DNA from: Acrasis kona
Lineage: Eukaryota > Heterolobosea > Eutetramitea > Acrasida > Acrasidae
Length of the DNA stretch: 64,000 bases
Direction: 5' to 3'
Assembly: GCA_026419775.2 (NCBI GenBank)
Contig: JAOPGA020001688.1
Coordinates: 141,312 to 205,311, forward strand
Positions 1 to 64,000 of this stretch are shown in pieces. Under the pieces are notes generated by a model, which saw only the letters and a list, made by a program, of their open reading frames with translations, was not told the origin of the DNA and did not search any database. Positions within the stretch are counted from its first letter, which is position 1, and every line of letters starts with the position of its first letter. The position numbers were made by a program, and so were the translations under genes.

Positions 1-2049
1 TCTACACCCACGCCTACTCCCGCACTTACACCAATACAATACACAATTGCATTCTCACAGAATGGTGTGACAGTTATGTACTACTATAATACTACATCTA
101 ACACTTCTACTGTTCTATCAACATCGATGGTTAACGGAGTGATGACAACCACAGTTGTCAAATCAAACATACAAGGCACAGTTTCTCAAATTTTACCAAC
201 TACTACTTCAAATAACACAGATATAGTTATATCTACATATAATAGTGTCACTGGTACAACAATTATTTCTCAACTTAACGTCGTATCCAACAGTAACATA
301 TCTCTAGTTGCAGTACTAAACTCGACTACAGCCAGTAATGTTGTACCTGTATACGACCCTATCACAAAAACAACATCACTTTTGATTTCTAGTAAGAGCA
401 CTAGCGGAACAACTACATTAGCGTCTGTATCAATACCAAGTATCTCAAATCCTACATTGGAATCAGTATCTACCCCAACGGCCAACATATCAGTAATATC
501 AGTTGTGCCGTCAGGTAGTAACCTACTTGTATTTACAGTCTTTAATAATATAACTGGTACAACAACTGCTTACATTCTAGCAGCAAGTAACACAAGTAGT
601 ACTGCAACGATTAGTAGTTTTGATACTGTTTCTAAAACAACTAGTGCATCAAATACCATTAATGTAACACCGGGATACATACCTGTGTTGACTACAACTA
701 ATACTGGATATAGTGTATCCACTGGATCTAACACAGTAGTATTGATACCAAGCGTTGTAACTAGTTCAAATGCGACATTAAATGTAGCAGTTGCTTATGT
801 AACTCCTACTCCAACCATGACACCAACATCCACTGCGGTACAAAACCTCCATACTTCTACTACTACCTCTACGTCCACTCCTACTCCTACACTAACGCCT
901 ATGACTACTGCTACTCCGACGCCAACACCCACACCGACTCCAACCACAACACCTTATACATCTTCGTCATCTGCTACTACGCTACTAATAACACCTGCTC
1001 CTTCTCCTATTACAGTCACAACTAAATCTCCTACCTACTCTACAACATTAGATCCAGTTACCTCTTTAGGTTTAGATATTTCTCAACCATCTAATCTTGC
1101 TCTTCCAGGAACTGATATAACACAATCAGTCGCTAGTGCAGTTATCGCTTCTTCTGGTGATACAGCATTGATGAGGTCCACGTTCAATTCTACGTCCGTC
1201 AAACAACGTACTGCTCTAAGATCTACTTCTCAAGAGAGTCCAGTTGAATACAAACAAGCTTTTGTTTTATTTTCAATACTTCCCGATACCATGTCATCAA
1301 TGGGATATCCTGTAGAATTATGGTTGTTCAGATCAACGAGCATATTTGGATATTCTTCACTTTTGATCGACCAATCAGGTTCCACTTTTTTGACTTTACA
1401 ATCGAGTGTTGATGGTTCTAAACCAGTTGTAAGCAAGAGCGTACCATGTTTATTTAGTGCGAATGTGAATTATAACATGAAAGTCATGTTTGCTAATATC
1501 ACTTCAAATACTGCAGTTATTCAAACAGTCTTATCTGCTTCGGAATCTGTGTTGTGTTCTGCTTCAATAACTATATCTGTTTCTCTCACTTCTCCTTTGA
1601 GTCTGCTCAGATTTAATTTGTTGTTATCTCAAAGTAATTTGTTAACTAATGATGGATCAAGAAAGATGAAATTAAACGGGAATCATAAACTTGAAATCAA
1701 TATCAAACAAGTTGGTCTAGCATGTCAACCTGGATTCTGTGACAATAGCACATCTACTACCCAAACTTCACCGAATACTCCTGATGATAAATCAAGTCCT
1801 ATTAACTTGAATTTGATTGTTGGAGTTATTGTACCTATCTGTGTATTAGGCTTAGTATTTATTTCAGGTTCTGTAGCGGCCATCATTATTATTATCAAGT
1901 GTAGACATGCTAGAAAGATTCATGATCTTAACTCAAGACTAAAAGAAGAAGAGGAAGTGGGATCACCGCAAAAAACAGCTAGGGTCTCTAGAGACAAATC
2001 AAACTCAGCTTCTCCTAGAATGATTGTCGTCTCGCCAAAAAAAATATAA
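1..2049 (+). CDS. Ser/Thr-rich single-pass surface protein (5' partial)
   Basis: The reading frame is open from base 1, so the gene begins before the window and no internal start is needed. About 680 residues are visible. The first ~350 are very rich in Ser, Thr, Asn and Val, with TPTPTP-type runs at about 895-950, typical of an O-glycosylated extracellular stalk. A more ordinary folded part with several Cys follows (about 1250-1740). One hydrophobic helix lies near 1810-1895, then a basic and acidic tail of ~50 residues ending in a Lys-rich stretch. This is the layout of a type I membrane protein with a short cytoplasmic tail, perhaps an adhesin or mucin-like coat protein. No catalytic motif is seen. 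The stop is TAA at 2047-2049. Family not recognised. Confidence 0.8.
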   Translation, partial: STPTPTPALTPIQYTIAFSQNGVTVMYYYNTTSNTSTVLSTSMVNGVMTTTVVKSNIQGTVSQILPTTTSNNTDIVISTYNSVTGTTIISQLNVVSNSNISLVAVLNSTTASNVVPVYDPITKTTSLLISSKSTSGTTTLASVSIPSISNPTLESVSTPTANISVISVVPSGSNLLVFTVFNNITGTTTAYILAASNTSSTATISSFDTVSKTTSASNTINVTPGYIPVLTTTNTGYSVSTGSNTVVLIPSVVTSSNATLNVAVAYVTPTPTMTPTSTAVQNLHTSTTTSTSTPTPTLTPMTTATPTPTPTPTPTTTPYTSSSSATTLLITPAPSPITVTTKSPTYSTTLDPVTSLGLDISQPSNLALPGTDITQSVASAVIASSGDTALMRSTFNSTSVKQRTALRSTSQESPVEYKQAFVLFSILPDTMSSMGYPVELWLFRSTSIFGYSSLLIDQSGSTFLTLQSSVDGSKPVVSKSVPCLFSANVNYNMKVMFANITSNTAVIQTVLSASESVLCSASITISVSLTSPLSLLRFNLLLSQSNLLTNDGSRKMKLNGNHKLEINIKQVGLACQPGFCDNSTSTTQTSPNTPDDKSSPINLNLIVGVIVPICVLGLVFISGSVAAIIIIIKCRHARKIHDLNSRLKEEEEVGSPQKTARVSRDKSNSASPRMIVVSPKKI

Positions 2050-3346
2050 AAAAGGTTTCCCAAGTGGTTCTAAAATGGTAGAAATAGGTATTTAATAAAC
2101 TATTAAATAATAAATGTTTTAATTAAATTGTACATCATGTTTTTACAATTAAAAATATTATTTAACTGTTTGTGCTCAGCCTACTTTTGGTACGCAGCGT
2201 GTTTCTGCCTCTATATTCATCTATCAATTTATTAGACAACCAATCAAGACCTTCCTTCTTTCTCAAGACAAGGCTGAACAAACCAATCATATTGCCTCAA
2301 AGACATTAGCCCAAGTCTATCAGTTGCCGAGAGTGCATTAGTGCTTATTTGCGACAACTAGTACATGGCAATTTTTAAATCTAACATCCTCAAGCATTTT
2401 GAGAAGCTCCATTCTTGCTTGTGGAATAAGAGTGGTGTTGAAAGATCACAATGGGTGTATGAAGAAGTACAATTTAGAAGATATATAGGCGCATTGTGAT
2501 CTTTCAACAACAGATGGAGCGACTATATTCATAATTTACTGAAGTGGTAATTTACAAAAAGGATCCTAATCATCTACTCTGCCACCATCTGAATTGATTT
2601 AGGAGGTGAGATCAATTGGAGTCTCAAACTCCAATATTTTTTGTACGCAAGATGTGGATAATTACTCGTCAAGGCTATTAATGCGACTCTTCCTGTGCCT
2701 ACACTATAGCTGTAGAACGATTTCAATTAAAAAACTTTTCAAAAACGTTCATTTTAATTCGGTGTTATTTACATGTTTCGCTTTCAAAGTGATTTTCGGC
2801 TAGATCCAATCCAGCCGAGTCGTCAACTAACAATGTTACATCTTCAACATTCTCAACCAGAAGAGTGCGTGACTAAGGCCTCCTTTAATTGTCGTGGCTG
2901 GGGAGTCGTGTACAAAAGTGGTGTTGTATGATTTGCTGTTTCTAATTCTTGACAGGAGTGGGGATTTCATGTTTTGTTTGCTTTTGCTTTGTGTTTACAT
3001 CAATTGATTTGCGAACATTCTTTTTATTCTTTTCAGGTGAGGATCATCGGGTCCGTCTGCGGATATCGGCGGCATCGCGATGTTCGCAATTTTACAAAAT
3101 CCGTAGTAATAAAGAAAATCTACGGACTTCAATGTTAAGTATACCTCCAATATAAGCTGCATTACATGAGATATGGCTATCAAATCAATCACTCATAATC
3201 ATTCATTATTGTAATAGATCGGTGGAAAATTTATAATAATAATGTCAAGTTTTGACGCTTCAATGTTCGTATTGATATGGACGAAGTTACAGTCTTCGCT
3301 TGAATAAAAGACATTAATCTGTCTCGGGCAAAACCAAAAAATTGAA
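2050..3346. other. Gene-poor stretch with coding-like fragments
   Basis: No complete gene is found in this 1.3 kb. On the plus strand there are short coding-like pieces separated by stops: about 2165-2341, a 44-codon ORF at 2365-2499, and about 2790-2930. They have even amino acid composition and look like remnants of a degraded gene or mobile element rather than leader sequence. A 17-bp inverted repeat (2437-2453 and 2492-2508) lies in the middle of this debris. The last ~100 bp before 3347 would be the promoter and leader of the AAA ATPase gene. Confidence 0.4.
2437..2508. repeat. 17-bp perfect inverted repeat
   Basis: GTTGAAAGATCACAATG at 2437-2453 is exactly reverse-complemented at 2492-2508, with a 38-nt spacer. 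It could form a hairpin or be a leftover of mobile-element ends. No transposase is nearby. Confidence 0.7.
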
Positions 3347-7067: not shown

Positions 7068-9022
7068 TTAATAATAGTTTTGTTGATTCTGTTGGGTCCG
7101 AGAAGGATACATTTGTCTCTGCTGTTGCTGAACAGGAGCCCCCATATCACCAAAAGGATCGTCAAAAGGATTTGCTCCCATTTGCATTTGTTGAGGCATC
7201 TGTTGGTTCATTTGTTGTTGCTGTTGCTGTTGATAGTTCAAATGAGGCTGCCTCACTCCGTACTGTACTTGAGGTATGTGTTGTTGCTGATGGACTGGAG
7301 ATGAGTAGTTTGGAGTTCCATATTGCATTTGATGTTGTTGATGTTGCTGCTGGGGAGGTAATTGTCTGGGCGTAACGTATGCTTGAGGAGTGTTGTTATA
7401 TGCTTGTTGCGAATGTCCAAATGTTTGGTTTTGATTGTATTGATTGTAGCTGGTGGTTGAGGAAGGTGTTACTGCTGATGTTGGTGTTTCCATAAAGTCA
7501 TCAAAACTCAAAAGATTGTTACTTGTGGAGGAAGCACTGCTCATGGTCCTTTGTCTCCTTTCTTCGCCGGGATTCACTTGAGGTCCCCTTGGCGGTTGAG
7601 ATGATGTAGGGTTGTTATTGTAATTCCTATTTTGAGGGTTGACTGCAGAAGATTGTGATCTAGTCCTTTCTTGCTGTTGCTGCTGGTTGCGACGTTGTTG
7701 TTGTTGATAATCGTCGTGTTCAGAGTCATTATCAGAGCTGGTATCGTCGGTTTGTTTTGCGGCTTGCTTAATTCTTTCTAGTTCATGTGGAGATAAAATG
7801 TCGGATAGTTGTGAAGTTGGAATACGTTCGCTGTTGTCTTCGTCATCATCTTCATCGTCGTCATCGCGTCTACGTGATTCATTATCGTCGATAAAGTGAT
7901 CTGTCTTTCGTTTGCTGGCTAATCCTGTCTTTTGTGAAACATCAATTCCTTGATTCCTTAGATATTCCTTCATGGTCTCTAGTATTGAGTCAGGGTTGGA
8001 TTTTAGTGGAGGGATCTTTTTAGAGTTGATGCCGTGAACCGACTTGGCAAACTTGAACAATTGAACAAGTTCGTTAGTCTGATGTAGGTGAAGTTCATAT
8101 GTGTCGTAGGCCTCTGAGGCAAACTCTCCGGGCATCTCAAAGTACATGTCGATGAGGCGCAATCCTGCCGCAAGCAGTAATTTATATAGAGATAAAGAGT
8201 CCTCAAGCAACAACCCTAATGCACCAATTGTGGCTCCGTTTGAAAGCATACTGTTCCTTCTGTCTCTTAAAATGACTTGACAATCTATCAACTCCTCCGT
8301 GACACGCATCAAGAAGCCCATGAATTTTGTTAATTCCTTTTCCTGTGTTCTTATGTCACCCCCTTGGGTCAAATAGCCGTTAAGAGATAAGTTGGGGGAG
8401 AAGGCTCTCATGTGACAGTTACGGAACAATATTACCCTTTCTTCTAGATAACGTGCATATTGTCTTACAAAAGGTGATTGTTCCATGGCGGTTGCAGTAC
8501 TACGATCTTTGAAGTTGCTCATGTTGAGTACTTTGCGATCTTTGCGGTCGAGTATAGCATCACAAAATTCATCACTACCCTCCTGTAAACACCTGTGTAT
8601 GACTTCGAGACCCTTTAATGAAATCTAACTACATTAGTGATTGTCTTGCCGTAACAACTTACCACCCAATCTTTGCTCTTTCTAATCTTTTTGCTCAAAG
8701 AATCCACAATGTCACTTACATTGATCTTATTGTCGCTTGTTTGGAATGTACTCAATACGATTTCTATTTGTGTAAGACGTGAATGTATTTAAGGGGCATT
8801 ACTTCTAACATGTTTCTCTTTTGGTGGAACTAAATCGTGATTGGTGGCTTTAATTATTGATTTTTCAACATCATCAAAAGGAGAAAGTGCGACCTTTAAC
8901 TTGTCCGACACCAACTTCCAGGTGGAAACACCAGCGTTGGGGTCTTTAACGGAAGAATTTCCTCGAAATACGTCCTTTACGCTAGAGGCACGCTCTCTTA
9001 ACTTGAGGCTGTGGGTGGACAT
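7068..9022 (-). CDS. ANTH-domain clathrin assembly protein (AP180/CALM type)
   Basis: Three exons: 9022-8803, 8763-8663 and 8624-7068, with introns of 39 and 38 nt, giving 625 residues. Joining them rebuilds an uninterrupted ANTH domain (about residues 20-300). The PI(4,5)P2-binding KATNHD..PPKEKHV motif is at the end of exon 1, the VSDIV..LSKKIRKSKDW helix in exon 2, and the LKGLEVIHR helix opens exon 3. ANTH proteins recruit clathrin to the plasma membrane and sort R-SNAREs. After an acidic stretch the tail is Gln-rich and disordered, with a clathrin-box-like LLSFD (478-482) and an NPF motif (592-594) expected to bind EH-domain proteins. The start is the ATG at 9022; the longer frame upstream begins at a non-ATG codon next to a stop. 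Confidence 0.92.
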
Positions 9023-9155: not shown

Positions 9156-12100
9156 TTACTCTTCCATCTCAAAAGCCAACTCATTAATTCTATTCTTTGA
9201 CTTGGCACTCAGCACCTTGTACTCCTGCATATCTTGAATCACAGAAACACACTTTGACAAGTAGCTAAAACAATGATTTCTAACCACATTGAAATTCTTA
9301 AATCCGTTCTGACGCAACACCAAATAATCCTTATAATTTTTATTCAAATAATGAATAAAATCAATATTGCAATGTAACATGAAAATAAGAGAATCTTGAT
9401 TCAACATGTAATAATAATCTTCTTCTGCAATAGCCATTTCTTCTCTGGGCGGAATGACAAATTTTGGTTTTTCCTCTCCCATTGTAAAAGCAATGGAGAG
9501 TCTTTTCGGGACATCAACACAGACACGAGAAGGAAGAGGACTAGCAAGATAGGTAAAGATATGGAACAAAATTTCAACGGGAAGAACAGAAAAATAAGTT
9601 CCAGGATAAGTAACGTTCACAGGAACGCCCTTTCCTGATTCCTCCACATTTCCAGTAGGAGAATCAGGCAAATTGAATTTTTTATTAACCATTTTCAAAA
9701 CAGTAGCAGGAATGAAATCTCTTCTTTTAAATTCGGATGGCAAGAATTTACCAAGGTCGATGAAATCATTTTCAAAATGTAACAATGCAACCAGCGCATT
9801 CGTGGGCGTCAGCCTATCGTTTAATTTATTACATAAAATGGTAAACAATGTGAAATTACGATCCAAATCCCAAATTCTACAAATTTGAATCATTTCGATC
9901 AAATCCGAAAAATCACAAATGCCATTTTGTGTGTCGAACGTCTTATCGCACATTACAGATAAATCTCCACCGTATAGAGCAGCAATCACGCACAAATATG
10001 ATTTGAATTTATAAAATGGCAACATGTTGTAATGACACGAATCGGATCGAATTCCTGGCAAGTACGTTTCCATCACAAATCGATGCAAATGTAAACAACC
10101 AGCTTGCCAACCGACTCCCTTGACGATCAAATCCGATCCAATTAATTTCGAAACATTTTGTTCCACCAATGTATTCGCAACGGACGTACAATGTAAATCA
10201 CCACTCGTTAAATTTCCAAAAGTTGAGGAATTTGTCAATGATGATGATGATGATTGTCGATGATGATCTTCGCTGATGGATTCCGATGTCGATGCGAATG
10301 GTGGAGCGGTCGATATTTCCGTTATAAAACTACTTCTTCGCACCGATAATGTGCTTTTGAGTTTGTTGATGAAATTCTTTTTTCCAGTGGGAGATGGTGG
10401 TGGCGGCATTAGAATTTGATCGTTTATTGGTAGGCTGTTGCTTCTGTTTCGTTGATCGTTTGTAATGGTTTTATTTTTGGAATTGAAACCGGAAAGGAAA
10501 TTAATGGGACTTGGCATTCCGAAAAGACTCTTTTTGTTTTTTTTGAGATCGGCTGCAGTTGCGAATTGGAATTTGTTGTTGAGATCGGACAATTGTTTAC
10601 TTTCCCGCGCTTTTGATGATTGACTGGATGTGAAATATGGGTATGGTTCTTTGCTGTAAATGAAGGAAATCATGTGAAGTAAAGTGATGGCGGTGACTTC
10701 TGGAATGATTGTGACGTTTTGATTGTTGACTTGTTGATCTTTGATGTACGCTAAAAGTAATGGACAATGAACCGAAAGTATATAGGAGTGTACTTTGAGT
10801 AAAAGTTGTGGTGACTCTTTGCACGATAAAGTGAGATCGGAGTTGACGATGGATGGGAATCGTTCCACAGTGTCCAAGAAACGTACTGGGTAGCTTGTGA
10901 CTCCATTCTTTCTGGACAAGAAATTGGATTTTTTGTTTGGTTCGTATAGAATGGGACTTCCTCCGAATAGGCCTCTGAATTTACTTGGTGATTGTTCCGA
11001 AGGCGATGGTGTAAATGTTCTGACTGGAGAGGGTGGCTTTGATGATACTTTTGGTGATCCGGTCATGATGTATGATTTTGGTTTCGTTGGTGTCTCTAAG
11101 GCCAGGTTCAAAAGATGATCTTGAGATTCTTCTGGGTAGGCATCATCCCACCACCAAACAATGTTTATTGGTATGGCTTCTTGTATTGATGCTGGGCCTC
11201 CAAGAGTGAAAGGTGTTGGTGGTTTGGAGTCAACCAAGCGTTCTGAGCGCAACGGTGTGGATAATAGTGAATTCCAAAACCTAACGGAACTCTCCATGTC
11301 AACGGCTTTCGTCACGCAAACTGTTGTCTCTCTTTTGTCAGGAAGACTTGATAAGAAACGGTTGGCAATGTACTGAAGAGCTCTCTTGAATTCTTGTGAA
11401 GGATCGAACCCCATTTGCTTGGGTTGGTAGGCTGGAAAACTCTTAGATAAGCATGCTCCATTTTTAATCTAAAGAGTTATTACTCGTAAAGGTTTAGACT
11501 TACTTTTTGTTCAAATAAATCAATCTTGTTGAACACTAAAAATAGATTAACTTTGCTTGCTGGGAAGTAATTGTTGTTTTTCAGCACTTCAATCCAGGTA
11601 TTAAGTGATTCAATCAGCCTGTTTGTCTCATTATCTTCATAGCACAACATGTCAAACTCGTCAAGTCCCACGACGTATACAAGGTCCGTAACGCCCTCAA
11701 AGCAAGAATACCATTTCTTCCTTTCGTTTCGCTCGCTTCCAACGTCAATCAGCTCCACATCATATTTTTGAAAGTCAAAGTTATTGTAAACTATTCCTGT
11801 CGTCTTCACCCTACAGAACAAAATATCCTGGTCGTCCGGTATATAGTCATCTGAAAAGATACGTTGCGTGTCATTTAACCAGTGCTGTACTTCTGGTATA
11901 TGAAATGTTGTATTTCTGCGAGTGTATGCTCTCTTTAGTGATTCTTGTGCCCATAAGTCGGGTACCTTTTGCAATGCGGCCTTCTCTATTGAAAAATCTG
12001 CAAACATGTGTAATATCTGAAACAATGAGTTAATTTGTAAATAATAAAAGTTACTTCATAACCAAATGTTTTAATGTAGTTCTTCTCGTCTTTAGAGGTG

Positions 12101-12528
12101 TCTGCATCTTGTAGGGCATTCTCCATGAGAAGTCTCATGCTGTACAGAATGTTTGAGTAAATTACATCTCGAAATCCACTTCGGTCATTATCGCTAAAAC
12201 CGTTATGGTATGCAAGTTTTGCTGCTTTAAAAAGAGAGGTTTTACCACCCCAGTTGCATCCAAGCTCCATTACCTACAAATACATTATTTCTTTTTCATT
12301 TCTATGCTTTACCTTTCTTTTAACTGCTTTATTCCTGTTCTGCTTAGGACTTAATTCGACGATAGCCCCTCTCCTACTTGGTGACATGGGCGGATAGATA
12401 TCATCGAGCTCATCAAGCTCTCTATCATCATCGTCCAACATGTCGATATCATTCCTCTTCTCGTCACTATAGTCGTCACCTCCGACCATGGCGGCGAGAG
12501 TGTCTATCGGACTAAGGCGTGGCTGCAT
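9156..12528 (-). CDS. G-alpha-like GTPase fused to two BTB domains and an F-box
   Basis: Four exons, 12528-12313, 12273-12055, 12016-11504 and 11468-9156, with introns of 39, 38 and 35 nt and all phase 0, give 1086 residues. Residues 1-72 are acidic and lack the Gly2/Cys3 lipid sites of normal G-alpha. The Ras-like and helical domains follow: P-loop GCNWGGKT (77-84), switch I RVKTTGI (214-220), DVGSER (236-241), NKID (308-311) and TKAV (369-372, the TCAT position). The G-alpha C-terminal helices read straight into exon 4. Then come a Pro/Ser-rich linker, BTB1 (about 522-594), a Ser-rich linker, BTB2 (about 758-824) with a BACK-like tail, and an F-box (about 942-984). The order GTPase, linker, two BTBs resembles RhoBTB. 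Likely a ubiquitin-ligase adaptor gated by a nucleotide-binding domain; that role is inference. Confidence 0.85.
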
Positions 12529-13091
12529 TTGTCTTCAGAATAACGGTGAGATGACCAAAGAAATATTTTACTACATAAACTTCAGAAGCAGAAAAAATAA
12601 CCTGTCAAAGTCTGCTATTTTGGGTGGACAAACTTTTTTTGTAGATAAAAAAGATAATTATTATAACAACATGAATTCGGCTTGATTCTCCTACATAAAT
12701 TGAGTTTTAGGTGATAATATGAAAGTTAGTTTCTCTATTCACACTCCGCGGTTCAAAGATTTTTTTGGCCTAAATTGTTATCTTTGACTTAAATGGATAG
12801 TGTGGTGCTGTTTATAAAGGGTGCGAATAATCCACCAGTCCCGTTTCCTACTTCTTTTTTTGTTGAAAATATGCAACTCCTTGAATTTTGAAGCATTATT
12901 TTGTTGTCCCCAACAGCAGACCAATGTGTGGACCATAAAAGATGTTGTTCAAAAATGAAATGTGAAATGATGGCATCTTATTGTAGTGATAGCTTTACAA
13001 TTTTTTCGGACTATGCAGGATGGGACTGTCGGACTCCGACGCGACATCTCACAGCTTAAAAGTATGTTACTCAATGATTTACAAAGAAAGG
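12529..13091. other. Divergent intergenic region between G-alpha/BTB gene and FAD monooxygenase
   Basis: This 560-bp gap should hold both promoters. A TATA-like TTTATAAAGG is at 12811-12820. A short palindrome GTCGGA-C-TCCGAC sits at 13028-13040, just before the monooxygenase start. No ORF with convincing composition is present. Confidence 0.4.
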
Positions 13092-14309
13092 ATGAATAAT
13101 CAAAAAATTCTTATCTCTGGTGCTGGAGCTGCTGGCCAATGTTTAGCTTACTGGCTTAGTAGATACGGATTTCGTCCAACCGTTTGTGAAAGATCTCCTG
13201 CTCCGCGCATAGGTGGATTCGCGATAGATTTAAGAGGTGCTGCTCTTACAGTTGCAGAGCGCATGGAGATTATCAACGAGTGCATGGACAACAGAGTCCA
13301 CATGCAGACGATAGCCAGGCTAGATCAATATGGAGATGTTGTTTGGAAGACGGACGGAAACTTTGGAGCTGGAGAGGTTGCTTCTCGAGACATAGAGATC
13401 CTTAGAGATGATCTGACGGCCATCCTACAGAAAGCAATCCACAAGGATGTGGAGTACATTTTCAATGATACTATTTCAACAGTAGAACAAACTGAACAAG
13501 GTGTTGATGTATTGTTCAAGAGTGGTATCAAACGACAATTTGATCTAGTCATTGGTGCAGACGGGTTGCATTCAAACGTCCGTAAATTAGTATTTGGACC
13601 AGAATCTCAATTTGCGAGACCACTGGGAATGTACATTGGTATATTTACCATTAGAAACTTCCTCAAAATGGATAGAGAATGGCATATGTCCTATCTTCCC
13701 AACAAAATAATTAACATCATGCAATATGGACACGACAAGCACACACGTGCCATGTTGATATTTAAAAGCGACCCCATCCCTTATAACAGAAGAAATGTTA
13801 GTGAACAAAAGGCGATATTGAAGGGACAATTCAGAGATGATAACTACTGGGTTATATCCAAGATCTTAGACGCTCTGGACGAAGCCAATGATTTATACTT
13901 TGATGAAGTCACACAGATTCATATGGATAACTGGTCTCTAGGTAGAGTGGCACTAATAGGAGATGCTGCCAGTGCTACAACTCTTTTTGGAGGTCAGGGG
14001 ACCAGTAGCGCCGTAGTTGCAGCATACGTACTAGCCGGAGAGCTTAAAGAAGCAAAGGGAGACTACAAAACAGCGTTCGAGCGCTATGGCGAAGTATTTA
14101 AAGGATATGCTTCAAAGAATCAAGAACTTGCATTGTTAAGTAATCATGAATTTGCCATTCCAACTACATGGGAGGAAGTGGAGAAGATGAATACTGAGCT
14201 GCGTGGTTTAACAGAGGAAGCAAAGCAGAATGAACCTGATTCTACATCCGCTGGAGATTTTATTCAAAACGCTGCTAATGCAATTAACTTGAAGGATTAC
14301 ACCCAATAA
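13092..14309 (+). CDS. FAD-dependent monooxygenase (TetX/UbiH-like group A)
   Basis: Encodes 405 residues. The Rossmann dinucleotide motif ISGAGAAG is right at the N-terminus, the DG motif (IGADGLHS) is near the middle, and the GD motif (LIGDAAS) binds the FAD ribityl chain. This order is that of flavoprotein hydroxylases of the PHBH/UbiH/TetX class, which use NAD(P)H and O2 to hydroxylate small aromatic or polycyclic substrates. The substrate cannot be told. I chose the ATG at 13092 because the protein then begins directly with the beta-strand of the FAD domain; an in-frame ATG at 13020 would add 24 weak residues and contains a palindrome that looks regulatory. A paralog of the same class lies at 37844-39097. 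Confidence 0.88.
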   Translation: MNNQKILISGAGAAGQCLAYWLSRYGFRPTVCERSPAPRIGGFAIDLRGAALTVAERMEIINECMDNRVHMQTIARLDQYGDVVWKTDGNFGAGEVASRDIEILRDDLTAILQKAIHKDVEYIFNDTISTVEQTEQGVDVLFKSGIKRQFDLVIGADGLHSNVRKLVFGPESQFARPLGMYIGIFTIRNFLKMDREWHMSYLPNKIINIMQYGHDKHTRAMLIFKSDPIPYNRRNVSEQKAILKGQFRDDNYWVISKILDALDEANDLYFDEVTQIHMDNWSLGRVALIGDAASATTLFGGQGTSSAVVAAYVLAGELKEAKGDYKTAFERYGEVFKGYASKNQELALLSNHEFAIPTTWEEVEKMNTELRGLTEEAKQNEPDSTSAGDFIQNAANAINLKDYTQ

Positions 14310-15714: not shown

Positions 15715-15785
15715 TCAGCACTAGTATAGTGGTAGAATACAAGACTGTCACTCTTGTGACCGGGGTTCGATTCCCCGGTGCTAAG
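15715..15785 (+). tRNA. tRNA-Asp (GTC)
   Basis: A 71-nt cloverleaf can be drawn. The anticodon stem CAAGA/TCTTG encloses loop CTGTCAC, with anticodon GTC at 34-36. The T arm is CGGGG-TTCGATT-CCCCG. The D-arm region TAGTATAGTGG doubles as the A box, and GGTTCGATTCC is the B box. The acceptor stem TCAGCAC/GTGCTAA has one mismatch and discriminator G, as expected for Asp. There is no intron. A run of five T at 15787-15791 is the Pol III terminator. Confidence 0.9.
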
Positions 15786-15786
15786 C

Positions 15787-58074: not shown

Positions 58075-59031
58075 TCAACTAACGACGTTAGCAAATAATT
58101 TTTTGATATAATCAGGTCTCTCATCTTCTTCACCATCCATTTCTAGGGCATCAAACACTTGTAGCATATTAATCTCTTCACTCGTATCACTCCAATTAGT
58201 GACACTGTGAAGTACTGGTATGCTACCTGTGATTGGTATTCTATGCTCTATAAGATATTTTAGTTGCTCATTAGTGAACTTCTTTTTTAATTGTGTCATT
58301 CTGTTGTACATTGACTGGAACAAGTCTGTTAAATTCTCTGCACAAAAGTAACCTTCTGGCGAGTTACTAACATATGTTGAAAACGCCCCAAAATCTTTAT
58401 TTTTTGCATCACAACAAAGAAAGAACAAATCAAATTCAGATTCCGATCCAACCCACAACCAATTTAATGTAAAAGAGCCTTGATGATGGATTCCCTTGGC
58501 ATATTCTTTAATTTCTTCTGTCTCATACTCTTCGAAATAGTTGGGAATTTCGTCGATGCCACTAATAGCTTTAAACTCAATTGTGAAGTACTCCTCTCCA
58601 ATTCTGAATCCATCGCATATTTCATAAAGTGCAATGAACTCGTATGGTAAAGTTATATTTTGATCCTTGACCTTGGCAATAAATTTTTTGAGTGCCTTTG
58701 GATCAGGTTCGCGGAACACTTCAATAAATGGTTTAAGGATGCTCAAATGTTTTTTGATTTGCATTTTCGTTTGGACTCTATCCTTGCAGAACACGTATGC
58801 GTCCACTCCCTTTGCACTTTCCCAAGAGTTGATGGTCATTAATTTGCCCCACAAATAAGAAGAGCTAGCCACATTAAAATCTTTGCTTGTCCTCAAAATT
58901 TTGAACACATCTTCCACATGAACGAATTCGAAAATTCTTTCAATAATTTCTGTAGGAAGGAAAAATGACGGGTTTGACTTTTTGGATTTGCTCCCAAATC
59001 TTAGATCACTGTCATCTACCCTCCTCTTCAT
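58075..59031 (-). CDS. F-box protein with SMI1/KNR4 (SUKH) domain
   Basis: Encodes 318 residues. A Lys-rich N-terminus is followed by an F-box (about 25-65: FFLPTEIIERIFEFVHVEDV). Residues ~115-260 resemble a SUKH domain, with the typical TLPYEFIALYEICDGF start and later WLWVGSESEFDLFF strands. This pairing is seen in FBXO3-type proteins, which also carry an ApaG domain; none is found here. The F-box would bind SKP1, and the SUKH domain would be the substrate side. The C-terminal ~60 residues are helical and acidic. Confidence 0.78.
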   Translation of the reverse strand: MKRRVDDSDLRFGSKSKKSNPSFFLPTEIIERIFEFVHVEDVFKILRTSKDFNVASSSYLWGKLMTINSWESAKGVDAYVFCKDRVQTKMQIKKHLSILKPFIEVFREPDPKALKKFIAKVKDQNITLPYEFIALYEICDGFRIGEEYFTIEFKAISGIDEIPNYFEEYETEEIKEYAKGIHHQGSFTLNWLWVGSESEFDLFFLCCDAKNKDFGAFSTYVSNSPEGYFCAENLTDLFQSMYNRMTQLKKKFTNEQLKYLIEHRIPITGSIPVLHSVTNWSDTSEEINMLQVFDALEMDGEEDERPDYIKKLFANVVS

Positions 59032-61246: not shown

Positions 61247-64000
61247 ATGAGCACATCACCAAAAGAAGAAGAGAATATTAGCAATGTCCCAAAAACTAAA
61301 ACTTTTTCAACACTCAGTTTAAATTCAAAACCAACGATCGTTAACACCTCTCCATCACAAAAAGCATCCGCATGTACGTTACAATTTTCTGATATTGACT
61401 TTAAATCATTTAGCGTCAACACAGCAGACCATTAGAAAGGAGAGCGGAGTTGTTGTAATAAAGAAAAGTACCACAGGTACCACCAACCAAGCGAACAATT
61501 CAAGAATAAGAACAAAATCAATAGGATCTAAGCTCTCTGTACCAGTTCCTTTAAATCTTTTACCAGAGTCACCAACAATAGAGCAGGCCCCCTCCACCAC
61601 ACAATCATCCTCCACAACAAACAGTTCTTCCTCTAACGCGTGGGGTCCCAAAGAATCCTCAGATGTCCCAGATCAACCAAGAACCGCTTGGAGCAAAACA
61701 GAGAGCGTGAGCGAAGTCTCCAGCAACACACAAGACGACGAACAATTTCCATCTCTTGATGCCAGTATGTGTTTTTTTCATCTTTTTCAAATCATTTACT
61801 TTTAAAGAACCCAAAAAAAAGAGAACCCAATCAACAGGTCCCATTCCCAACGAAGAAGTAAAATTTTCACCTCAAAAGAAGATACTTTCCAGAGATGAAA
61901 AACCATCATCAACCTCAAGCACTCCACCACGTTCCTCCTCCATCGAAAAGAAATCAGAATCAACCAAGAGTGAAGAGGAGACGCGCCCGACCATCAATTG
62001 GGGAGCCACCAGCGAGGACGACGAAATGGATTATGATGAGGATTTGGAACTCTTGATGAAGAGCACTCCGACGCTTTTAGAGTCTGCATTCGCCGACCCA
62101 CCCAAACCAGCACCAGCGCCAGCGCCAGTCAAGTCAGCATGGGGTAATCCAAACGAAACGAAACAAGATGTTGATTCCAACACTCAACAACAAGTCAAGG
62201 AAGAAAAGAAGGAATCGCCAAGAGGCCCATCAACCACCACCGATTCTCCATCCGAAGATAAAAAGACCAGAAGATTAAGCAAGGTTCAAAATTTATTCGA
62301 AAAGGGTTCTGGCGAAAAAAAGATTCAAATCCTCAAGAAGCCCATGCTACAAGCATCAAAGATTGAACACGAAAAGGAAGTAACAAAGCCAACAGATGCT
62401 CAAGTGCAACAAACAATGTCGCTGATCAACAATCCAAACAGTCCGCTCATCAAGATTCAAAATCAAGCTGCAAACATGAACACATTAGCGGAGCAACGCA
62501 GAGAACAAAAACGTTTGGAAGAAGAACAAGAGGAAAGAGAGAAACAAGAGCGCATTCGTCAACGTCTCGAAGCACTAAACAAAAAGACTCAAAAAGCAAC
62601 AAGAAGAGCAACAAGCAGCAGCAGCAGCAGCAACGATTACATCCACGCCCAACGTGACGCCCATCGATGCAACCCATCACTCTGATGATTTCAAAACGAG
62701 ACCACCCAGCAGGCACTCCGATCGCACCGGAAGAACCACCAGAACAAATCTAGAAGATGTGCCCAAGAAGGAAACACCGATCGATTATACATTAGAGGAT
62801 ACCAATTGGAGAAGCAAGGACACCACGCCATCTGATGCATCTTCATCATCTCCATTCCAAAAATTAAAACCAATCGATAAATCATCAACATTGACCACCA
62901 ATGCGAACGCTTCAATCAGGGGAAGAGATCGATCTACATCCATGGATAATCAAGAAGACAAGAACGAAACCTCTGGAAGAGGAAGAGGACGCGGACGTGG
63001 CAGAGGACTTTATCATGAAGATTCAATCGGCAGAGGATCGAATCGCGATCGATCTTCATCATCAGGAACATTAAAATCGCCAAGATTATCAAAAGCGGAA
63101 TCATCTACGCCACCAAGTCCATCATCATCGTCATCGAATCAAGAAGAATCATCGCCTGCACCATCCACACCCAATGCAACCATCAAGAGACCATTCCTAC
63201 GCAACGTCGCCACGAAGCAACCAGGTGCAGGTCGCGGATATGCATCGCCCAAAACACCAGTCAGTGCCATCAACGTTCAATTAGAAAACAAATTCGACAT
63301 TCCTTCGCCGCCGATCGTATCAGAAAAGCAAGTCAATCAAATAGCAGCGGCAGTTCATGGAGATGCCGACGATGCCAATCTAATCATCAACGACATTGCC
63401 AGATCCATCGATGAAAGCGAAGACACGTTCGTCAGCACGCAAACAGGAGTGGTGGTGCTCAACGAACAAACGGGCGTAGACGTCGGACACGAAGAAGGAG
63501 AGTGGCAAGAACAAAAGAAGAGAGGTCAACATCGATCGTCTCTACCTCCATCCACTCCGCCGCTACTCGACAATAACAACAAGAATAACAAATCCACTCC
63601 AAATCATAAAAACGAAGGTGGTAATGCGGGCGGTAATAGGAGCAGAAGAAATAGCGAAAAGAGAGAATTCGATCATGCGAATGCAAATTCGAATCGCGAT
63701 CACCAACCAAGAGGCGATAAAAAAAAGAAGGAACATCACAAGAACCAAAGTAATGCTAATCATGCGCCACCCAGTCAAATCTCTTCCAACGAATCATCGA
63801 GTACTCTTGATAATGTTGAACCGGTGGTGGTAGAGACCACCAAACCAGTGAACGTGAGAAGACCAAGCATCAATCTAGATACCACTCACATTCCATCGTT
63901 CAACACCACCAAAATATCATTTGGTTCATTATCCACTCACACGCCCGTCGATTCATCATCGATTCAACCAGAAGAGGTATTTTCCATCACTGCCGGTCAC
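61247..64000 (+). CDS. Large disordered RG-rich protein (3' partial, apparent 1-nt frameshift)
   Basis: Exons 61247-61373, 61414-61764 and 61808 onward (introns 40 and 43 nt). The frame of exon 3 closes with TGA at 62683-62685. From about 62586, however, a different frame is open to base 64000 without a stop and with the same Ser/Pro/Asn-rich style. The two join smoothly if one A is removed from AAAAA at 62581-62585, giving a continuous charged helix followed by an Ala run. The protein has FPSL and WG motifs (about 61650-61760), acidic patches, a coiled region (62480-62600) and an RG-repeat block (62973-63005). Such layouts are found in RNA-binding proteins (PRRC2- or LARP-like). No folded domain is visible, and the C-terminus lies beyond the window. 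Confidence 0.75.

Follow-up and report, generated by a model that had tools for sequence, protein, structure and literature searches.

To our knowledge, proteins that join a GTPase to BTB domains are known but a heterotrimeric G-protein alpha (G-alpha) version of them is not, and the only known CUL3 adaptors gated by a GTPase belong to the Rho family; G-alpha subunits are known as separate, receptor-coupled switches. In RhoBTB proteins, a GTPase is followed by a Pro-rich linker, two BTB domains and a BACK-like end, and the protein binds CUL3; RhoBTB1 and RhoBTB2 carry an Asn at the position of Ras G12 and have lost two residues from switch II, and RhoBTB2 retains GTP binding (PMC4931677). In the proposed gating mechanism, the GTPase domain holds BTB1 in an autoinhibited state from which a partner releases it for CUL3 (PMC4931677); this mechanism is still a model. 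RacA of Dictyostelium has been described as RhoBTB-like (PMC8305917). Here we analyze a minus-strand gene of Acrasis kona whose predicted product combines a complete G-alpha domain with two BTB domains, located in a stretch of 64,000 nucleotides (the window; contig JAOPGA020001688.1, positions 141,312 to 205,311). A. kona is an aggregating heterolobosean amoeba.

A first-pass annotation, made from the DNA letters alone, had described this gene as a RhoBTB-like design on a G-alpha chassis, and the overall order of domains, the Pro/Ser-rich linker, the two BTBs and the conservation of the whole in a protein family agree with that description. The proposed gene model, with three short introns (35-39 nt) all in phase 0, also held, and the spliced product is 100% identical over its 1086 residues to an A. 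kona protein in NCBI/UniRef, named there 'guanine nucleotide-binding protein alpha-2 subunit [Acrasis kona]' after its G-alpha part only. As had been noted, the last G-alpha helices (IANRFLSS and TVCVTKAVD) share an uninterrupted exon with the BTBs, the end of G-alpha and all BTB sequence lying within a single open reading frame (ORF) of 770 codons, while exon 3 alone matches the G-alpha profile PF00503 (E 7e-49). Genome-wide searches covered an A. kona assembly of 37.35 Mb in 1021 contigs and found no second copy of exon 4, the sole match being exon 4 itself. The A. kona genome paper gives a genome size of 44.02 Mbp and introns of 9-95 bp; its main text mentions 'hetero-trimeric G-protein regulators' and neither BTB, F-box nor 'heterotrimeric' (PMC11589745). 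By this predicted gene model, the gene encodes one real G-alpha/BTB fusion protein.

The predicted combination is a conserved family. A database search that scored the 8000 candidates sharing most words returned 8 matches: the protein itself, five G-alpha-BTB relatives, and a nematode (P0007) and a moth (P0008) protein that match on the G-alpha part. The domain scan of P0007 gave an acyltransferase and no BTB, and no BTB is among the precomputed domains of P0008; no Naegleria-named protein is among the 8 matches from these 8000 candidates, which does not prove absence from Naegleria. The five relatives (P0002-P0006, 788 to 1139 aa; source labels jgi for P0002, P0004 and P0005, lgn for P0006, and ncbi, jgi and lgn for P0003) show 33-43% identity in the alignment with the A. 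kona protein (P0001), and in all six sequences, which are the family as used here, a G-alpha comes first and is followed by two BTBs, an F-box-like helix and a helical tail. For the full-length P0002 the alignment covers 94%; in P0003-P0006 the source predictions leave out parts of the G-alpha N-terminus. Between P0001 and P0002, identity amounts to 202/325 (62%) in G-alpha, 45/108 in BTB1, 55/150 in BTB2, 32/115 in linker 1 and 32/98 in linker 2; G-alpha is the best conserved large part, which points to selection and not decay. As two relatives carry precomputed PF00503 and PF00651, the G-alpha/BTB pairing can be computed from databases.

On a tree of 32 G-alpha rows, comprising 26 further A. 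kona loci (drawn from at least 74 G-alpha matches in the genome), five of the six family members (P0003 was left out as too short) and one nematode, the five family rows form a single clade with support 100/99. Ten A. kona rows are very long branches, so the sister G-alpha of the family is not readable from the tree. Two of the three homology searches recovered their own controls poorly. No BTB-BTB module without G-alpha was found among 8000 candidates, a search that also missed the family's own members of fitting length and is therefore uninformative; a search with P0002 residues 825-1139 returned 2 of 1309 candidates (P0002 and P0003) and missed P0001 and P0004-P0006, so that its silence is weak.

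The identity of the N-terminal half as a G-alpha domain, helical domain included, is certain. PF00503 matches residues 63-378 with 250.8 bits (E 2.6e-74) over profile positions 13-323 of 333, all 50 Foldseek matches listed are G-alpha structures or complexes, and the best solved-structure match is Galpha7 of Naegleria fowleri (PDB 6ne6). Regarding a Rho-family small GTPase domain, the Pfam scan gave no Ras match and an Arf match under threshold (18.4 bits, cut-off 22.3).

This G-alpha half is atypical, and in a way that is fixed across the family; the first-pass annotation had not remarked on the changes in its switch II and P-loop. With ordinary G-alphas (A. kona loci L001-L003 and L007, and Galpha7 of N. 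fowleri) it has in common a near-complete PF00503 domain, the helical domain, switch I RVKTTG and NKxD, and the P-loop Lys is also kept; in contrast, it has GCNWGGKT and DVGSER where the ordinary proteins have GAGESGKS and DVGGQR, and it has neither an MGxxxS start nor a free alpha-5 end but about 690 extra residues. GCNWGGKT is present in both family rows that reach the P-loop (2/2), and GAGESGKS in five ordinary A. kona loci (L001-L004, L007). In switch II the DxxG Gly is replaced by Ser and the catalytic Gln by Glu in all five rows covering the site, the DxxGQ of heterotrimeric G-alphas being absent from each of them. The switch II pattern was found in 8 of the 22 scanned A. kona G-alpha loci, six of which read DVGGQRNERKKW, C595 DCAGAKQERKKW and C254 LMGSQRNERKKW; on these eight loci, the family switch II departs from the ordinary form, the Ser not being exclusive to it.

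At the acidic N-terminus (MQPRLS...), the lipidation motif MGxxxS is missing; it starts L007 and L016 by pattern scan and C790 and C254 by eye, but the pattern gave no match in the fragments scanned from the ordinary L001-L003 either, so its absence carries little weight. Some phmmer alignments to G-alpha-i chains start at residues 52-53, at about chain residues 10-17; the structure model shows no helix before residue 83, but its predicted local distance difference test (pLDDT) values there are below 50. At the other end, alpha-5 runs into FW(N/K)xx(L/I)(S/N)xP and then the linker in all six rows, and the ordinary free end is absent. Receptors bind the C-terminal end of alpha-5.

The presence of two BTB domains is supported, the second by profile comparison only. 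BTB1 scores 22.8 bits against a Pfam cut-off of 20.5, and five of the six members pass this cut-off, with P0004 reaching 19.2 bits. In RhoBTB the first BTB is bipartite, with an insertion; BTB1 here covers positions 11-75 of 110 of the profile with a variable stretch behind, and the quality of the structure model is too low for its last helices to be located. Hidden Markov model (HMM) scores thus reject neither G-alpha nor BTB1. In profile-profile comparisons of the family alignment with 20 BTBs of the A. kona genome, for which 200 column shuffles served as null, BTB1 gave Prob 96.4 and BTB2 Prob 90.4 (E 1.4e-6 for the single comparison; 80 columns, nearly the whole domain), and no shuffle scored as high in either case (0/200 each); as control segments, G-alpha gave Prob 0.2, the F-box 0.2 and the tail 4.1. 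The earlier claim of two BTB-like domains therefore stands in Pfam for BTB1, and for BTB2 by profile comparison but not in Pfam (0/6). The family BTB1 and BTB2 match each other weakly (Prob 5.3; score 21.4, against 21.1 for the best of 200 shuffles) and are therefore no close copies. BTB domains often dock onto ubiquitin ligases.

The F-box included in the first-pass annotation is half a motif at best. The F-box-like match at residues 943-960 reaches 16.6 bits, under the cut-off of 24.3, and no family member passes (0/6; 11.8 to 18.9 bits, P0004 not listed). When set against 20 F-boxes of the A. kona genome (one identical pair among them), the segment matched over no more than 18-20 columns, those of the first helix, with or without the insert, and 0/200 shuffles reached the score. 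A full F-box with an insert was considered and rejected, because leaving the insert out failed to extend the match past helix 1. The element appears to be a conserved first helix of uncertain meaning. Structure prediction bore out the G-alpha fold and gave a C-terminal half of low confidence, in which the model from BTB2 to the tail has a weak fold likeness to the BTB-BACK proteins NPR1 and KLHL11 (11-17% identity over the aligned parts), neither of which has a GTPase; the C-terminal end may be BACK-like.

The best explanation of these features, to which we give a probability of about one half, is a RhoBTB-like adaptor, probably of CUL3 type, on an atypical G-alpha. The BTB half would be a ubiquitin-ligase adaptor (probably CUL3-type) and dimeriser, and the G-alpha half a nucleotide-binding regulatory or partner-binding domain, no longer an ordinary receptor-coupled hydrolysing switch. 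The kept P-loop Lys, switch I Arg and Thr, and NKxD suggest GTP binding, and hydrolysis would be slow or altered. CUL3 would be bound by the BTB half and the adaptor gated by the G domain: a slowly or abnormally switching, nucleotide-holding G-alpha would bind a partner and gate the BTB adaptor, similar to RhoBTB. For two of the A. kona cullin frames tested, the best solved match is Cullin-3 (358.7 bits vs 288.7 for Cullin-4B, and 300.2 vs 260.1).

Several points weigh against this explanation. The Ser in DxxG is not unique to the family, as it also occurs in the G-alpha of A. kona C254 (LMGSQR), and the change of Gln to Glu is by itself no proof of lost hydrolysis, because Ras Q61E hydrolyses GTP well. 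BTB2, cut out alone, has no Pfam BTB match in any of the six members, and many BTBs only oligomerise. Confidence is low in both structure models (mean pLDDT 43.4 and 53.8), and a Foldseek search with the second (mean pLDDT 53.8) gave no match under E 0.001, which makes the BACK reading weak.

It is rather unlikely, on balance, that the BTBs only oligomerise and that G-alpha is a scaffold or decoy for assembling effectors or RGS proteins, unconnected with ubiquitin. Such an arrangement would suit the diverged BTB2 and the fact that the CUL3 contact of the family is a prediction, as well as the switch II stretch ERNERKKW, which is identical in 5/5 rows and which belongs to an effector/RGS surface; against it stand the possibly BACK-like tail behind BTB2, of a kind that adaptors often carry, and the example of RhoBTB, which has the same order and binds CUL3 (PMC4931677). 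We consider it improbable that the protein is a Skp1-CUL1 (SCF) adaptor acting through the F-box-like helix and dimerising by its BTBs: Skp1 is encoded in the A. kona genome, but only helix 1 of an F-box is recognised, with all listed members below the cut-off and a match that grew no longer when the insert was left out.

The first-pass annotation had also suggested a ubiquitin-ligase adaptor under nucleotide or G-protein-coupled receptor (GPCR) control, of which the adaptor and nucleotide part is retained here as a prediction and the GPCR part is not. Classical GPCR control is unlikely, because the alpha-5 end is neither free nor alike, the DxxG Gly and catalytic Gln are changed (5/5) and, as a weak point, MGxxxS is absent. 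A conventional, GPCR-controlled G-alpha whose output is a ubiquitin ligase would fit the complete G-alpha domain with its helical domain, the intact RVKTTG and NKxD, and a possible alpha-N helix, as the phmmer alignments beginning at residues 52-53 allow; we nonetheless regard it as very improbable, since in 6/6 rows the chain continues past alpha-5 with a sequence after FW(N/K)xx(L/I)(S/N)xP unlike the ordinary end, and Gi and Gs reach their active state less readily when the DxxG Gly is changed. For this lineage, receptor-driven exchange is in any event no safe assumption, because two self-activating G-alphas and 28 putative seven-transmembrane proteins with RGS domains have been described from the related N. 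fowleri (PMC9283941). Finally, a wrong joining of two adjacent genes by gene prediction, which would accord with a fusion known here from genes alone and with an NCBI name that cites G-alpha only, is ruled out for practical purposes, as the earlier annotation had held, since a single open frame runs through the junction, and five other database proteins show the same junction.

Compared with RhoBTB1/2/3 and Dictyostelium RacA, the fusion protein likewise has an N-terminal GTPase, a Pro-rich linker, two BTBs and a helical C-terminal end, and like RhoBTB1/2 it has a changed P-loop and switch II; alignment to PDB 6ne6 places an Asn at the matching P-loop position, presumably that of G12 in Ras numbering. 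Unlike them, its GTPase is a G-alpha with helical domain and not a Rho GTPase, and an F-box-like helix precedes the tail. The RhoBTB order itself is present in A. kona, as a separate gene (L018, G000:C546:67500-72000, ORF 1522-2997, plus strand; near-copy in C798) encodes a partial Ras domain and two BTBs; its BACK match has 16.3 bits, under the cut-off of 20.9, and its protein ends in WPPKWY, which we take to be a RhoBTB feature. In hhalign, the BTB half of the family and the C546-type RhoBTB-like C-terminal half aligned over 34 tail columns with Prob 5.4 (E 0.007). The fusion had been called independent and convergent; with a Ras-BTB-BTB gene in the same genome and this hhalign result, that wording goes too far, and the profile comparisons neither show nor exclude an origin of the BTB half from RhoBTB.

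As the earlier annotation had supposed, no description of a G-alpha/BTB or G-alpha/F-box protein was found by title or abstract in open-access papers (supplements aside). We propose, tentatively and with somewhat less than even confidence, that a protist lineage including Acrasis has built a G-alpha counterpart of RhoBTB that would gate a CUL3 adaptor in the same chain, without a free receptor-binding end and with a non-standard switch II and a RhoBTB-like P-loop change, and that coupling of G-alpha to ubiquitin ligases arose at least twice. The last part, if true, follows from G-alphas with an internal F-box that the genome seems to hold. A direct link from G-protein to ubiquitin would then be testable in one molecule, and a comparison of two GTPase chassis with similar active-site changes would show which features the gate needs.

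The genome listing holds at least 74 G-alpha and at least 84 BTB matches, and among those listed only the fusion gene was seen by eye to have both within 3 kb; G-alpha and BTB matches share four other contigs, more than 11 kb apart by eye. G-alphas with an F-box were found at L013 (G000:C790:17800-22500; ORF 2057-3214, plus strand; F-box 29.0 bits) and L026 (G000:C254:13000-17500, minus strand; F-box 36.0 bits, F-box ORF 896-1552), both above the cut-off of 24.3. In C790 a single ORF encodes G-alpha (aa 39-126), the F-box (aa 216-256) and G-alpha again (aa 318-382); in C254 the G-alpha and F-box parts are in separate ORFs. The last G-alpha match of each comes from an iterated HMM that possibly included these rows (iE 7.5e-7 for C790, 9e-4 for C254). 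Both are like the fusion in joining G-alpha to a domain of ubiquitin-adaptor type, and C254 also in the Ser of DxxG; unlike in the fusion, the F-box seems to be lodged within G-alpha itself, between alpha-G and alpha-4, and not behind it, and no BTB was found in them. They were not resolved as sister of the family on the G-alpha tree.

Other A. kona genes combine related domains. L010 (G000:C805:20000-25500; ORF 22-3015, plus strand, 997 aa) has Kelch repeats and weak TPR-like matches and ends in a degenerate G-alpha. L028 (G000:C85; ORF 245-1681, minus strand) joins in one ORF an F-box and, behind it, a Ras-type GTPase, and L027 (G000:C230; ORF 320-1882, plus strand) has the same pair preceded by a 2OG-Fe(II) oxygenase domain; further same-strand F-box/Ras neighbours in the genome-wide lists (C849, C156, C561, C504) are candidates. 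The N. fowleri genome paper cites reviews on F-box, BTB and RhoBTB proteins close to its references on small GTPases, and may note such fusions (PMC8296547).

Table 1. Features of the G-alpha/BTB fusion gene, in window positions.
Feature	Position	Strand	Residues	Description
Whole gene	12528 to 9156	-	1-1086	four exons, product 1086 aa
Exon 1	12313..12528	-	1-72	acidic N-terminus, probably disordered, up to first G-alpha strand; no MGxxxS start
Intron 1	12274..12312	-		39 nt, phase 0, GT-AG
Exon 2	12055..12273	-	73-145	P-loop and start of G-alpha helical domain
Intron 2	12017..12054	-		38 nt, phase 0, GT-AG
Exon 3	11504..12016	-	146-316	helical domain, switch I RVKTTG, switch II, NKxD
Intron 3	11469..11503	-		35 nt, phase 0, GT-AG
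Exon 4	9156..11468	-	317-1086	with stop; G-alpha end, linker, BTB1, linker, BTB2, F-box-like helix, tail
G-alpha domain	11247..12342	-	63-390	spans three introns
P-loop GCNWGGKT	12238..12261	-	77-84	
Switch II DVGSERNERKKW	11711..11746	-	236-247	identical in 5/5 family rows covering the position
G4 motif NKID	11519..11530	-	308-311	intact
Linker 1	10890..11234	-	395-509	Pro/Ser-rich, weakly conserved, 13-28% identity to P0001
BTB1	10551..10874	-	about 515-622	Pfam match at 526-590
Linker 2	10185..10550	-	623-744	Ser/Lys-rich, 16-33% identity to P0001
BTB2 and helices directly behind	9711..10184	-	745-902	by profile comparison
F-box-like first helix LPVEILFHIFTYL	9537..9590	-	943-960	remainder of F-box not recognisable
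Helical tail	9159..9398	-	1007-1086	possibly BACK-like; pLDDT blocks 83-90, weak match to RhoBTB-like tail

Within the window, the downstream same-strand neighbour (7068-8624, minus strand) encodes a protein that has an ANTH domain (PF07651, E 2.3e-28) and a Gln-rich tail, and the divergent neighbour (12993-14309, plus strand) a FAD-dependent monooxygenase-like protein (PF01494, E 5.8e-12), followed by a tRNA-Asp gene (gtc) at 15715-15786 on the plus strand. An F-box-like match of 27.0 bits lies at 58840-58959 on the minus strand in a 324-codon frame (C881:200151-200270), and the block at 62001-64000 has a G+C content of 0.458 and an AT skew of 0.38, above the other 2-kb blocks of the window.

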